Assembly (NCBI RefSeq): GCF_000337415.1
Contig: NZ_AOJD01000021.1
Location: forward strand, 249-64,248
From: Halorubrum tebenquichense DSM 14210
Lineage (GTDB): Archaea > Halobacteriota > Halobacteria > Halobacteriales > Haloferacaceae
Reading direction: 5' to 3'
Length of the DNA: 64,000 bases
Shown here: in pieces, positions 11,037-63,113 of the stretch
Position numbering within the stretch: the first letter of the stretch is position 1
Layout: each line of letters begins with the position of its first letter
Translations under genes and position numbers: made by a program
Notes under the pieces: generated by a model
The model's input: only the letters and a program-made list of their open reading frames with translations
Databases searched by the model: none
What the model was told of the DNA's origin: nothing

Positions 11037-11070
11037 GCACGGCCGCGACGGCATCTGTTTATAAACAGGT

Positions 11071-11390
11071 GCGGTGGCGCGTGCCGACGAGCGCCCAGAG
11101 GGCGCGAGTCGCACGCGCGAGGGAGTCGCTGGCCCCGGAGCGGAGCGGAGGGTGCCAGCGACGAGGCTGGGGAGGAACGAGGTGCGGTGCTGTGGGGGGG
11201 CGGGACTCGAAGGGGCAGCCGGGAGGCGGGCGTAGACGACACAAGGACCGCAACGAGGGAGCGACAGCGACCGAGTGAGGACCACAGCGAGTGTACGCCC
11301 GCCTCCCGGCTGGGGCTTCGGCGGTGTTCGTGTCGATCAAGAGTTTATAAACAACTACTGCGTCATACAGCCGAGCGGCTGGGGCTTCGG
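11071..11390 (+). ncRNA. Dispersed structured-RNA candidate, copy 1
   Basis: Fills much of the 451-bp gap between the phosphatase stop and the folD stop. From the 5' end: GCGGTGGCGCG; outer stem GCGCGTGC/GCACGCGC with inner hairpin GCGCCC-AGA-GGGCGC; stem GTCGCTGGC (11125-11133) with GCCAGCGAC (11154-11162); conserved single strand GGGACTCGAAGGGGCAG; a perfect 19-bp stem 11216-11234 with 11294-11312, extended past a GGG/GGG internal loop by CGAAG/CTTCG; then two tail motifs CTGGGGCTTCGG at 11310-11321 and 11379-11390 (spacing 69). It is similar to three other copies in this window. No protein reading is conserved between copies, whereas the pairing is. Transcription is not shown. Confidence 0.65.
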
Positions 11391-17282: not shown

Positions 17283-17996
17283 TTATCCGTCCGCGCCCTC
17301 GGCGAGCCCGTCGGCGACGATCCGGAACGTGGCGGTGTCGCCCGCGGGCTTCGATCGGTGTTTTTCGAGTGTCGCCCGGCGGTTCCCGCCGCGGAACCGG
17401 TCGACGCGGACGATCGCGCCGGTCCAGTGGTTGAGCGTGTTGCCGCCCAGCGCGCGGTCGCGGTCGCCGTCGGGGTCGGTGAACACCTGGTTCGTGATCA
17501 CGACGGCGACGTCGTGCCGCCGGGCCAGAGAGAGGAGGTGCGTCACCTGCTTCGCGACCTTCCGGAGCGACTCGCCGCCCTCGGTGTCGCCGGCGCGCTC
17601 CAGTCGGTAAAAGCCCGTCGCGGAGTCCAACACGATCAGCTCGACCTCCTCGGCGAGCTCCTCGGCGTCGCGGACCGCCTCGCGCTGGTCGTCGAAGTCG
17701 TACGCCTCGGAGATAACCAGCCGCGAGGCGAGCGCTTCGAGGGCGTCGTCGCCGTCGCCGTCACCCCGGTCGAGCCGGCCCTCGGCCAACTGCTCGAAGC
17801 GGTCGATAGAGAGCCCCTCGGTGTCGATGTAGAGGGCGCGGTCGCCGCGGGCCGCGACCTCGACCGCCGCCGAGAGCGCGAGGTTCGTCTTCCCCGCGGC
17901 CGGCGGGCCGTACACCTGCGTGACGACGCCGCGCTCGAAGCCGCCGCCCAGCAGCTCGTCGACCGGGCGACAGCCGGTCGGGATCGGATCGCTCAC
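17283..17996 (-). CDS. radB: DNA repair and recombination protein RadB
   Basis: 237-residue RecA-family paralogue limited to archaea; it assists RadA in recombination. Walker A is GPPAAGKT (residues 30-37), Walker B is VELIVLDSATG, and the lid/L2 region is HDVAVVITNQVFTD with GGNTLNHWTGAIVRV. It lacks the N-terminal helix-hairpin-helix domain of RadA, as expected. The start is GTG 17996 in the usual MSDPIPTGC context. TATTTAAATG (minus strand, 18021-18030) lies about 28 nt upstream, consistent with a leaderless message. Confidence 0.95.
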   Translation of the reverse strand: MSDPIPTGCRPVDELLGGGFERGVVTQVYGPPAAGKTNLALSAAVEVAARGDRALYIDTEGLSIDRFEQLAEGRLDRGDGDGDDALEALASRLVISEAYDFDDQREAVRDAEELAEEVELIVLDSATGFYRLERAGDTEGGESLRKVAKQVTHLLSLARRHDVAVVITNQVFTDPDGDRDRALGGNTLNHWTGAIVRVDRFRGGNRRATLEKHRSKPAGDTATFRIVADGLAEGADG

Positions 17997-18215
17997 TAGA
18001 CGGCAGTTCGGCCGCGCTCGTATTTAAATGGTCGATCGCGGCGGCGACGGCGCGGTACGCGCCGCTCGCCGTGGTGATACGCGCCGCTCGCCGACGGCAG
18101 CGCCGTCACTCGTCGGGCGGTGATAAGTGTGAGAGAAACGGAGATGGCGTCGATCGCGTCGAGCGACGGCCGAAATCCGGTAGTGCGTGCGGACCTGTCG
18201 TCCGCTACGTGGGGG

Positions 18216-25768: not shown

Positions 25769-25843
25769 GGGTTGGTAGTCTAGTCCGGTTATGACACCTC
25801 CTTGACATGGAGGAGGCCGGCGGTTCAAATCCGCCCCAACCCA
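25769..25843 (+). tRNA. tRNA-Val (anticodon GAC)
   Basis: 75-nt cloverleaf. The acceptor stem GGGTTGG pairs with CCAACCC and the discriminator is A. The anticodon stem CCTCC/GGAGG encloses the loop TTGACAT with anticodon GAC. The T-arm is GGCGG-TTCAAAT-CCGCC. CCA is not encoded. There is no intron. TTCAATTACG just upstream (about 25721) may be the promoter. The 245 bp between the M24 gene start and this tRNA hold nothing else I can support. Confidence 0.97.
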
Positions 25844-29355: not shown

Positions 29356-30465
29356 ATGTCCGCTCGTTCCCGACCGGCGGCCGCGGCCGCAACCGCGCTC
29401 GTCCTGCTCGCGACGGTCGCCGCGCGACCGGCCGCGGCCCACGTCGACTACGTCACCGAGGAGCCCGGCGACCCGCTCGACGCGGTGACGTTCGTCGCCG
29501 ACGTGCTGTCGGACCCGTTCAACGCGGCCCTCTTCGCCGGATCCGGGCTCGCCGCGCTCGTCGGGCTCGCCGTCTACCTGTGGGTGCGGCCCACCATCGT
29601 CGACGTGGTCGTCCTCCGCGAGACGCTCGCCGGCTACGGCGACCTCGTCCCGTGGATGCTGCGGCTCGCGGTCGGGCTTCCGCTCGTCGGTGCCGGCTTC
29701 CAGGGGTACCTGTTCGCGCCGACGCTCTCGTTCGACCCCGGAACGAGCCCGCTCCTCCGGGTGCTCTTCATCGGCCTCGGCTTCTCCCTCCTCTTCGGGC
29801 TCGCGACGCGGATCGCGTCGGCGGTCGGGCTGGCGACGTACGCGTGGGTGTTCCTCGCCGTCGACTCCTCCGTCGTCCTCGCGGTGGAGTACGTCCCGGT
29901 GTTCGCGGCGCTCGCGATCCTCGGCGGCGGGCGGCCGAGCGCCGACGACATGCTGTTGGAGGTCGCGAGCACGCCGGGGTCGTACTACGGGCGGATCGAC
30001 CCGGTCCACCACCTGAAGGCGTTCCTCGACCGGTCGACGGCCCCCTTGCGGCGGTACGTGCCGACGGTGCTCCGGGTCGGGATGGGCGTCTCGTTCGTCT
30101 ACCTCGGGCTGATCCAGAAGCTCGCCGACCCCGGGAGCGCGCTGCTCGTCGTCGAGAAGTACGACCTCACCTCGTTCGTGCCGGTCGACGCCGGGCTGTG
30201 GGTCGTCGGTGCCGGGGTGACCGAGGTCGCGGTCGGGCTGGCGCTCGTCGCGGGCTTTTTCACCCGCGGCGCGGCCGCGCTCTCGTTCGTGCTGTTCACC
30301 ACGACGCTGTTCGGGCTCCCCGACGACCCCGTCCTCGCGCACGTCGCGCTGTTCGGCATGGCCTCCGCGGTGTTCACGCTCGGAGCCGGCCCGCTGTCGT
30401 TCGACCGCTGGTTCGGTCGCCCCGCGCTCGGCGACGACGAGGAGCCGATCGCGCCGGCGGACTGA
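29356..30465 (+). CDS. DoxX-family membrane protein
   Basis: 369 residues with an N-terminal signal or helix (ALVLLATVAARPAAAH) and about nine further hydrophobic segments. The C-terminal half (from about residue 235, VPTVLRVGMGVSFVYLGLIQKLADP) is a DoxX/DUF417-type four-helix unit with VAVGLALVAGFFTRGAAALSF. The N-terminal half seems to be a related duplicated unit (LRLAVGLPLVGAGFQGYLF). DoxX proteins are linked to quinone or thiosulfate redox reactions, but the role here is unknown. Confidence 0.82.
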   Translation: MSARSRPAAAAATALVLLATVAARPAAAHVDYVTEEPGDPLDAVTFVADVLSDPFNAALFAGSGLAALVGLAVYLWVRPTIVDVVVLRETLAGYGDLVPWMLRLAVGLPLVGAGFQGYLFAPTLSFDPGTSPLLRVLFIGLGFSLLFGLATRIASAVGLATYAWVFLAVDSSVVLAVEYVPVFAALAILGGGRPSADDMLLEVASTPGSYYGRIDPVHHLKAFLDRSTAPLRRYVPTVLRVGMGVSFVYLGLIQKLADPGSALLVVEKYDLTSFVPVDAGLWVVGAGVTEVAVGLALVAGFFTRGAAALSFVLFTTTLFGLPDDPVLAHVALFGMASAVFTLGAGPLSFDRWFGRPALGDDEEPIAPAD

Positions 30466-51811: not shown

Positions 51812-52172
51812 CCGAAGCCCCAGTCGCTCGGTGATACGTAGTTACCAACGCGGACACGACTACCGAAGCCCCAGTCGCTCGGTGATACGTAGTTACCAAC
51901 GCGGACACGACTACCGAAGCCCCAGTCGCGAGGCGGACAGACGCTCGCTGCGCTCCTCGCTCAGTCGCTACCGCTCCTTCGCTGCGGTGCTTGCGTCGCC
52001 TCTGTCCGCCTCGCGACTGCCCCTTCGAGTCCCGCCCCGCCACAGCACCACAGCCTCACGCCTCCCCAGCCTCGTCGCTGGCGGTCTTCGCGTCGCTCGA
52101 CCGCCAGCGACTCCCTCGCGCGTGCTGCTCGCGGCCGCCTTCGGCGGCACGCTCACAGGCACGCGCCACCGC
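51812..52172 (-). ncRNA. Dispersed structured-RNA candidate, copy 2
   Basis: Read on the minus strand from 52172. It has the same order of parts as copy 1: GCGGTGGCGCGTGCC, hairpin GCCGCC-GAA-GGCGGC, a 13-bp perfect stem GTCGCTGGCGGTC/GACCGCCAGCGAC, the invariant GGGACTCGAAGGGGCAG, and a 19-bp perfect stem (52001-52019 with 51923-51941). The main stem starts CAGTCG rather than CAGCCG. The 3' tail has three motifs CTGGGGCTTCGG at exact 51-bp spacing (plus-strand ends at 51914, 51863 and 51812), and the first two 51-bp units are identical. It accounts for most of the 497-bp gap between genes. Transcription unproven. Confidence 0.68.
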
Positions 52173-52265
52173 GATCGAGAACGGTGTCGAGAGGCGGGGA
52201 GTGGGCGTCGAAACTCGGATGCCGCCTCCGGAACGCCCTTGTCCCCACCCCGGTCAGATCGGCGC

Positions 52266-57063: not shown

Positions 57064-57137
57064 CGACGACAGATCGGCGACGGGCGCGGTAAGGGGTTAC
57101 GAAGCGGGTCGGACGACCGTCTCGAACGGAGTCGACT

Positions 57138-57442
57138 GCGGTGGCGCGCGCCTGCGAGCGTGCCGCCGAAGGCGGCCGCGAGTCAGCACGCGCGAGGGAG
57201 TCGGCGGCGACCGAAGGGAGCCGCCGACGAGGCTGGGGAGGCGTGAGGTGCTGTGCGGAGCGGTGCGGGGTGGGACTCGAAGGGGCAGCCGCGTGGACGA
57301 AGACGCGCGACGTAAGGACCGCAAGGAGCGAGCGGAGTGAGCGACTGAGGACCGCAACGAGCGCATCGAGTCCTCGCGGCTGGGGCTTCGGTAGTCGTGT
57401 TCACAACATCACCCGCGTCGTAGCGAGCGGCTGGGGCTTTGG
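57138..57442 (+). ncRNA. Dispersed structured-RNA candidate, copy 3
   Basis: Same architecture in the 449-bp gap between pdaD and pan: GCGGTGGCGCG at the 5' end, hairpin GCCGCC-GAA-GGCGGC, stem GTCGGCGGC (57200-57208) with GCCGCCGAC (57220-57228), invariant GGGACTCGAAGGGGCAG, and a shorter main stem CAGCCGCG (57286-57293) with CGCGGCTG (57375-57382), then a mismatch and GGAC/GTCC. Tail motifs are at 57380-57391 and 57431-57442 (51-nt spacing; the second reads CTTTGG instead of CTTCGG). This is the most decayed copy. Confidence 0.6.
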
Positions 57443-62728: not shown

Positions 62729-62757
62729 GTCCGGCGTCCCACGGTCCCCAAATTCGT

Positions 62758-63113
62758 GCGGTGGCGCGTGCCTGCGAGCGTGCCGCCGAAGGCGGCCGCG
62801 AGGCAGCACGCGCGAGGGACGCGGCGACCGGAGCGAAGCGAAGGGAGCCGCGAGGCTGGGGAGGCGTGAGGCGCGGTCGCTGTGCGGGGCGGGACTCGAA
62901 GGGGCAGCCGGGAGGCGAGGCGCAGGCGACGTAAGCACTGGAAGGAGCGAGCAACGCGAGCGACTGAAGCGCGCAACGAGCGTGCGCCTCGCCTCCCGGC
63001 TGGGGCTTCGGTGGTCTCAGTCGCTGATTTCGTTGTCCTCTAACGAGTGTCTGGGGCTTCGGTGGACTCAGTCACCGAGTTCGGCGTCCCGTAATAACCA
63101 TCTAAGACTTCGC
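62758..63113 (+). ncRNA. Dispersed structured-RNA candidate, copy 4
   Basis: Begins 30 nt after the htpX stop and converges on the DUF6293 gene. Parts: GCGGTGGCGCGTGCC, outer stem GCGCGTGC/GCACGCGC with inner GCCGCC-GAA-GGCGGC, stem CGCGGC (62820-62825)/GCCGCG (62847-62852), invariant GGGACTCGAAGGGGCAG, and a perfect 20-bp main stem (62905-62924 with 62983-63002). The tail motif occurs at 63000-63011, 63051-63062, and as a decayed third unit (CTAAGACTTCGC) at 63102-63113, each exactly 51 nt apart. Transcription unproven. Confidence 0.66.

Follow-up and report, generated by a model that had tools for sequence, protein, structure and literature searches.

A dispersed intergenic hairpin element with conserved G-tracts in Halorubrum tebenquichense and across the Halobacteria

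Bacterial genomes harbor intergenic repeats such as ERIC, BOX, REP/BIME, and Correia, which are modular, form stem-loops, derive in part from non-autonomous mobile elements, and may play a role in transcripts. Short, non-coding, and mostly intergenic dispersed repeats are likewise known from haloarchaea, for example, the miniature inverted-repeat transposable elements (MITEs), PATEs, and SMRs of Haloquadratum walsbyi (PMC3119063), alongside the insertion sequences (ISs) of the IS6 family in Halobacteria (PMC7986276). Here, we analyze an element that is present four times in a stretch of 64,000 nucleotides (nt) from Halorubrum tebenquichense DSM 14210 (contig NZ_AOJD01000021.1; this whole stretch is called the window below) and that the first-pass annotation had presented as a dispersed RNA element with covarying helices. 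We give an even chance to the view that these copies belong to a class-wide, non-coding intergenic family in which the fold is kept, the + strand works as RNA, and the Halorubrum members are derived from transposons.

Like ERIC, BOX, and REP, the element occurs in many copies between genes, has a stem-loop fold, and contains no gene. It differs from these repeats and from Correia in its unrelated sequence, its archaeal hosts, an invariant G/G internal loop with further G-tracts upstream, and the depth of its compensatory change. With regard to the H. walsbyi repeats, members with IS6 ends carry a transposon's terminal repeats along with target duplications of their own and thus match the definition of a MITE, whereas the Halorubrum members have neither, and the interior is a class-wide covarying fold that has not been reported for MITEs, PATEs, or SMRs (PMC3119063). 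Similar to the IS6-family elements of Halobacteria (PMC7986276), the MITEs found in two genera (g2 and g45) have the same ends as a 697-bp IS and produce 8-bp duplications, but what lies between these ends bears no relation to the transposase gene, and such ends are missing from most members of the family. Finally, conserved runs of at least three guanines recall archaeal G-quadruplexes (G4s), which formed in both DNA and RNA of Haloferax volcanii (PMC12873603); in the present element, however, two of the tracts lie within the internal loop of a covarying hairpin, and no such composite was found in the literature searched.

That the element matches no named family was borne out by a search of Rfam (Rfam 15), in which only tRNA reached a gathering score in the window, while the best weak match, mir-1269 on copy 4 (18.3 bits vs. 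a cutoff of 100), is irrelevant. HEARO, omega, and bridge RNAs, candidates in view of the link to transposons, gave no Rfam match (association with IscB or IS110 was not tested systematically), and literature searches by sequence string and topic, with most subscription papers outside their reach, returned nothing that describes the family. It is apparently undescribed, and what is new, as far as could be searched, is a class-wide, covarying, G-tract-bearing core within the known haloarchaeal kind of MITEs, PATEs, and SMRs. Elements that occur in most sampled genera of an archaeal class, with about 100 per genome in Halorubrum, and that are absent from Rfam and the literature searched bear on how transposon-borne DNA turns into a maintained structured element, on whether compensatory change in repeats stems from RNA selection or from arm-to-arm copying, and on fixed roles of quadruplexes in cells with molar potassium. 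They also caution that covariation in multi-copy hairpins can arise from hairpin exchange.

A covarying fold with conserved G-tracts

Each of the four sites shows the same anatomy of 250–260 nt, followed by short tandem units. The element starts with the invariant block GCGGTGGCGCG(T/C)GCC and helix P1 around a variable hairpin cassette, the stem of which exists in many different perfect versions across the family. The block GCGAGGGA, helix P2, the block GAGGCTGGGGAGG, and a variable G-rich linker follow, and the 3′ domain consists of GGGYGGG, ACTCGAAGGGG, and the long hairpin P3, which closes with GGGGCTTCGG. All four copies, their shared order, and the invariant blocks described in the first-pass annotation were recovered, as were the inner hairpin (GCGCCC/GGGCGC in copy 1, GCCGCC/GGCGGC in the other three), the variants of the second stem (GTCGCTGGC, GTCGGCGGC, or CGCGGC), and the main stem (19, 19, interrupted, and 20 bp in copies 1–4). 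It had overlooked that an outer helix, CGAAG/CTTCG, contains an invariant GGG/GGG internal loop and is closely preceded by GGGYGGG. Its extents need correction at the 3′ side: the fold stops at the first CTGGGGCTTCGG (11321, 51914, 57391, and 63011), and the sequence beyond, up to 11390, 51812, 57442, and 63113, comprises tandem 3′ units (51–69 nt) and flank outside the hairpin. Perfect GACTCGAAGGGGCAG occurs exactly four times in the window, and CTGGGGCTTCGG has nine matches with up to one mismatch, where shuffling predicts 0.54. By itself, GCGGTGGCGCG does not reach significance in a window so rich in GC (22 matches at one mismatch or fewer vs. 15.5 expected).

The compensatory change previously claimed from these copies is real and strong, as judged by shuffled and slid controls for P3 and by shuffling for P2; the P3 counts rest on alignments A5 and A6 and on the covariance model R2. 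Across 46 diverse sequences, 97.1 % of the cells in the outer 17 pairs of P3 are paired as compared to 63.5 % after shuffling of partners (0 of 500 shuffles as high), the covariation score reaches 0.831 (vs. 0.183 for shuffled partners and no more than 0.147 after sliding by 1–3 columns), and both sides change in 14 of the 17 pairs. For the full P3 (26 sequences, RNAalifold structure), 97.8 % of the cells are paired vs. 78.5 % shuffled and 24 of 33 pairs show compensation, which extends to the two-base helices that separate the GA-rich loops further in; as the structure comes from this very alignment, it has an advantage over slid versions. P2 of the GTC type is paired in 95.8 % family-wide (75.4 % shuffled), and the basal helix alternates between CGAAG/CTTCG, GAAAG/CTTTC, GGAAG/CTTCC, and AAAAG/CTTTT. 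Compensatory base changes, by which a structured RNA is recognized, hence exceed the controls, and the fold of the element is under constraint, on one strand.

Amid these changing helices, the positions of the GGG/GGG internal loop stay G/G in at least 97 % of the Halorubrum copies and in at least 94 % of those elsewhere. GGGNGGG directly upstream of P3 is present in 193 of 206 Halorubrum copies and 29 of 36 copies from other genera, and the single base between these two tracts is almost always a pyrimidine. Together, these make up four three-G tracts in the arrangement GGG-Y-GGG-N7-GGG(G)-hairpin-GGG(G), as many conserved runs of three or more G as a G-quadruplex calls for. Since the tracts are both conserved and unpaired, a quadruplex is suggested, and together with the hairpin they are candidates for a quadruplex–duplex. 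A natural loop mutant occurs in the sister genome G015 (L226, 14438–14556), where GAAGCCCCAG replaces GAAGGGGCAG and turns the GGG loop into a perfect helix.

In the explanation that we favor, the constrained unit is a one-strand fold of GGGYGGG followed by the long hairpin, with the basal helix (GAAAG/CUUUC or equivalent) and the arm flanking the invariant GGG/GGG loop. The four three-G tracts would assemble into a quadruplex that stacks on the hairpin, and the + strand would act as RNA in read-through transcripts or in a transcript of its own from the adjacent TATA. With moderate confidence, we infer that the fold acts as a stable knot in RNA crossing intergenic regions in the manner of ERIC, BOX, and REP; much like these bacterial repeats, such a knot might either stabilize or block. 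Helix complementarity would be kept by selection on the fold, aided by whole-hairpin exchange between paralogs, and the Halorubrum copies would descend from transposon-borne copies that were retained after their ends had been lost. A bolder version seems unlikely to us, namely a class-wide, potassium-dependent quadruplex–duplex in RNA or nascent transcripts whose transposon-borne cores halophilic archaea retained and expanded into a distributed set of about 100 chromosomal copies, the fold outliving the decayed ends.

Distribution, sites, and the IS6-borne branch

The number of four copies is an effect of the window, as the genome holds 107 core matches (up to two mismatches) vs. four for the reversed control. 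Even this is probably an underestimate, because contigs C34, C40, and C56 of the draft assembly (G000) begin with bases that lie within element copies. A scope confined to Halorubrum likewise proved too narrow, since the 3′ domain is found class-wide in Halobacteria. R2, the covariance model from the corrected alignment, detects the 3′ module (P3) in 180 of 242 Halobacteria genomes and 59 of 74 genera (E up to 1e-4; presence per genome, not copy number), including 30 of 30 Halorubrum genomes sampled. The relatives across the class had been found via the sequence profile of the first covariance model, R1, which matches copy 1 at 11202–11321 with 102.5 bits, its structure being two columns off. 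The exact two-block pattern is present in 27 of 52 Halorubrum genomes (up to 62 copies), and BLAST with copy 4 and its flanks gave element matches in most of 39 sampled Halorubrum genomes. The exact G-tract pattern occurs in 64 of 116 genomes of the class (zero for the reversed control) and in none of 164 genomes from other classes of the phylum. In the plasmid collection, the hosts are, among others, Natrinema, Halobaculum, Haloarcula, Halorussus, Haloterrigena, and Halopiger. A virus or phage origin was rejected, as there was no match among phages or viral contigs.

The Halorubrum element is a composite of 5′ and 3′ modules, because the two occur apart in Halorussus (L243 and L244 vs. L245); in other genera, many copies come without the 5′ module. 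In five genomes of family f3, genus g20 (G061, G125, G142, G145, and G152), a subfamily keeps GGGTGGGACTGAAAGGGGC...GGGGCTT and has a different, nearly constant interior, ACGCCGCTGGCG...CCCCTATCCGAACG. Head-to-head pairs of modules with about 25–30 nt (CGGCTGGCCAACCGG-like) in between were seen in several genera (L265, L267, L276, L280, L310, and L326).

What had been missed is a repeat family, dispersed and with a mobile branch of IS6-family MITEs that carry target duplications in two genera. In g2 and g45, elements of 204–260 bp with terminal repeats GGTCGTGTTTAGTT (ends of the GGTCGTGTTTAG type) and perfect 8-bp target duplications (AGACTGTA, CCGACCGC, CCGAGCCA, GTACCACA, and GAACAGAG) enclose the 3′ module. 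The 697-bp IS with the same ends in g2 encodes an IS6-family transposase of 217 amino acids (NF033587, PF13610), which was found in genomes G074 and G091 (NF033587 E values of 3e-54 and 1.7e-51, respectively). MITE versions of 107–125 bp that lack most of the hairpin also exist, and since one of these core-deleted elements (L321) carries a perfect target duplication, the hairpin is not needed for IS6 transposition. Many copies in G074 have an intact core and eroded ends, a view that is biased by the core-based search. The simplest reading is that the core was spread by IS6-family transposition in some lineages and kept without ends in others.

All 69 sampled copies in the H. tebenquichense genome lie between predicted genes, and Halorubrum copies are mostly retained at orthologous sites. 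Thus, 23 of 26 comparable sites are occupied in the sister species (G015), and the remaining three hold different intervening DNA rather than being clean empty sites. At the site of copy 4, the element or its remnants stand beside the same gene, always on the same strand, in about 20 of 30 Halorubrum genomes and were lost in the rest. IS6-type terminal inverted repeats were found neither in the window nor in other Halorubrum copies. A terminator or an element of 3′ untranslated regions was rejected, given that the orientations of neighboring genes are near background.

Sequence change, folding strand, and competing explanations

Several points weigh against the favored explanation. The quadruplex requires a hairpin of about 90 nt within one of its loops, in competition with the basal helix, and a protein-binding GGG loop fits equally well. 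The descent of the Halorubrum copies from an IS6 MITE is drawn from the shared core only, and the order could be the reverse, with IS6 ends capturing a pre-existing core. Shared flank stretches around Halorubrum copies are barely above shuffled pairings, with no convincing target-site duplication, and a search for 12-bp inverted ends with 8-bp duplications in Halorubrum gave three unrelated hits in 210. The right neighbor is convergent in 43 of 68 cases, which amounts to a weak bias and no strong gene-context rule, and a cis-regulatory role is not evident from the gene context. Between 22 orthologous copies and their counterparts in G015, identity is 96.3 % in the core, 96.9 % in the linker block, 85.5 % in the arms, and 65.6 % in the adjacent sequence, but for retained orthologs it is biased upward, as both copies were found via the core. 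Finally, double changes (45) exceed single ones (five) in ortholog pairs and G·U pairs are scarce; both observations favor an exchange of hairpins or template switching over stepwise compensation.

At several orthologous sites, the hairpins are of entirely different types, and together with the excess of double changes this means that whole hairpins are exchanged, or arms copied, within or between copies; the cell counts of the covariation analysis are accordingly not independent events. In L114 (3638–3756), the P3 interior is inverted between the arms while the outer helix and the G loop are kept, and the copy scores on both strands; likewise inverted interiors are found at G015:C1:126757, G008:C46:27640, and G125:C3:2347686. 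These inversions and the complementary loop GAAGCCCCAG (L226:14438) demonstrate that DNA copying events occur. All this would suit a purely selfish, non-autonomous DNA repeat whose arms are complementary through template switching or gene conversion, with no selection on RNA, as would the scarcity of G·U pairs and the MITE ends with target duplications in two genera. Template switching, however, would erase both the GGG/GGG and the tandem GA loops, yet the former is kept in almost every copy across the class; as DNA copying would remove it, the survival of the G/G loop counts against a purely mutational origin of the complementarity. GGGYGGG, moreover, lies outside the palindrome and is still equally conserved, mismatches are asymmetric by strand, and MITEs without the core still move. 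Since core-deleted MITEs move, orthologous sites stay occupied, and the core is more conserved than its flanks, there appears to be constraint beyond transposition, and we regard a purely selfish repeat as rather unlikely.

Folding appears to take place on the + strand as written, because GA-type loops are sensible on this strand only and because G·T mismatches outnumber A·C mismatches in the P3 arms (33:9 in Halorubrum and 16:4 in other genera), although the asymmetry fits RNA and single-stranded DNA (ssDNA) alike and strand-biased mutation could contribute. Of the selection on an RNA fold proposed in the first-pass annotation, the constraint on the fold therefore stands, whereas RNA rather than DNA is not established, and DNA-level hairpin copying inflates the covariation. 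The folded strand could thus be ssDNA that serves as recognition or replication structure for an HUH or tyrosine enzyme spreading the Halorubrum copies, which lack IS6 ends, comparable to the IS200/IS605, REP/RAYT, and integron attC systems. GNA-type tri-loops and GA-rich steps are very stable in DNA, too, and both the tandem 3′ units and the paucity of G·U pairs would be in line with such a structure. Dispersed copies without terminal repeats also resemble haloarchaeal PATEs (PMC3119063). Nevertheless, no candidate enzyme is linked to the copies, Halorubrum copies are mostly stationary between sister species, and IS605-type termini were not seen, though without a systematic test, which renders the ssDNA explanation distinctly improbable.

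An independent family of non-coding RNA genes, each driven by a promoter of its own (the TATA at the 5′ end) and giving RNAs of about 250 nt that bind a protein partner, would account for a precise and class-wide fold. It would also fit the TATA-like motifs whose starts cluster 11–21 nt upstream of the 5′ anchor (−21 to −11) in many of 140 copies, and Halobacteria have conserved intergenic small RNAs without assigned function (PMC7002113). The usual archaeal TATA spacing, however, puts the transcription start inside the conserved 5′ block, the 5′ module is often missing in other genera, and about 100 diverged copies per genome would be unusual, making this an improbable alternative.

The four copies in the window and their 3′ units

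Table 1. Coordinates of the element copies and their parts within the window.
Feature	Position	Strand	Details
Copy 1, whole fold	11070–11321	+	5′ module P1/P2, linker, 3′ module P3
Copy 1, TATA-like motif	11058–11065	+	TTTATAAA, just 5′ of copy 1 start; comparable spacing in many copies
Copy 1, P1	11077–11118	+	GCGCGTGC (11077–11084) / GCACGCGC (11111–11118)
Copy 1, cassette inside P1	11091–11096 / 11100–11105	+	GCGCCC / GGGCGC
Copy 1, P2	11125–11162	+	GTCGCTGGC / GCCAGCGAC
Copy 1, conserved linker block	11163–11175	+	GAGGCTGGGGAGG
Copy 1, upstream G-tracts	11198–11204	+	GGGCGGG, first two G-tracts of the candidate quadruplex
Copy 1, P3	11208–11320	+	Outer helix CGAAG/CTTCG, GGG/GGG internal loop, 19-bp arm, conserved distal hairpin
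Copy 1, 3′ tandem unit	11310–11390	+	69 nt; ends in second CTGGGGCTTCGG; holds TTTATAAA at 11344–11351
Copy 2, whole fold	51914–52173	−	Perfect 19-bp P3 arm CAGTCGCGAGGCGGACAGA
Copy 2, 3′ tandem units	51812–51925	−	Three CTGGGGCTTCGG, 51-nt spacing
Copy 3, whole fold	57137–57391	+	Interrupted P3 arm (GACGAAGAC type, present in other genera too)
Copy 3, 3′ unit	57380–57442	+	51 nt
Copy 4, whole fold	62757–63011	+	20-bp P3 arm
Copy 4, 3′ unit	63000–63062	+	51 nt

Elsewhere in the window, ARAGORN calls a tRNA-Asp (17920–18005) and a tRNA-Arg (29372–29459), both of which are probably false; Rfam supports only the tRNA at 25769–25843.

The units of 51–69 nt that follow P3 (Table 1) repeat CTGGGGCTTCGG and often contain TTTATAA. 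Among the Halorubrum copies, their lengths are 51, 54, 57, 63, 66, or 69 nt, with 124 of 133 being multiples of three. Coding units were nevertheless rejected, as stops occur in 39 to 72 of 124 units in every forward frame. The base that precedes CTGGGG in a downstream unit tends to match the P3 arm of the same copy (39 G-G and 20 A-A, the two matching classes), and in view of this agreement these units may either offer the 5′ arm an alternative partner or be recent local duplicates. In L001, L160 (10478, − strand), and the L167 copy's ortholog in G015, further hairpins (e. g., GAGAATCTTCGATTCTC and CCGGGCTTCGCCCGG) are inserted as chains between P1 and P2 and apparently represent a second repeat family that targets this element.
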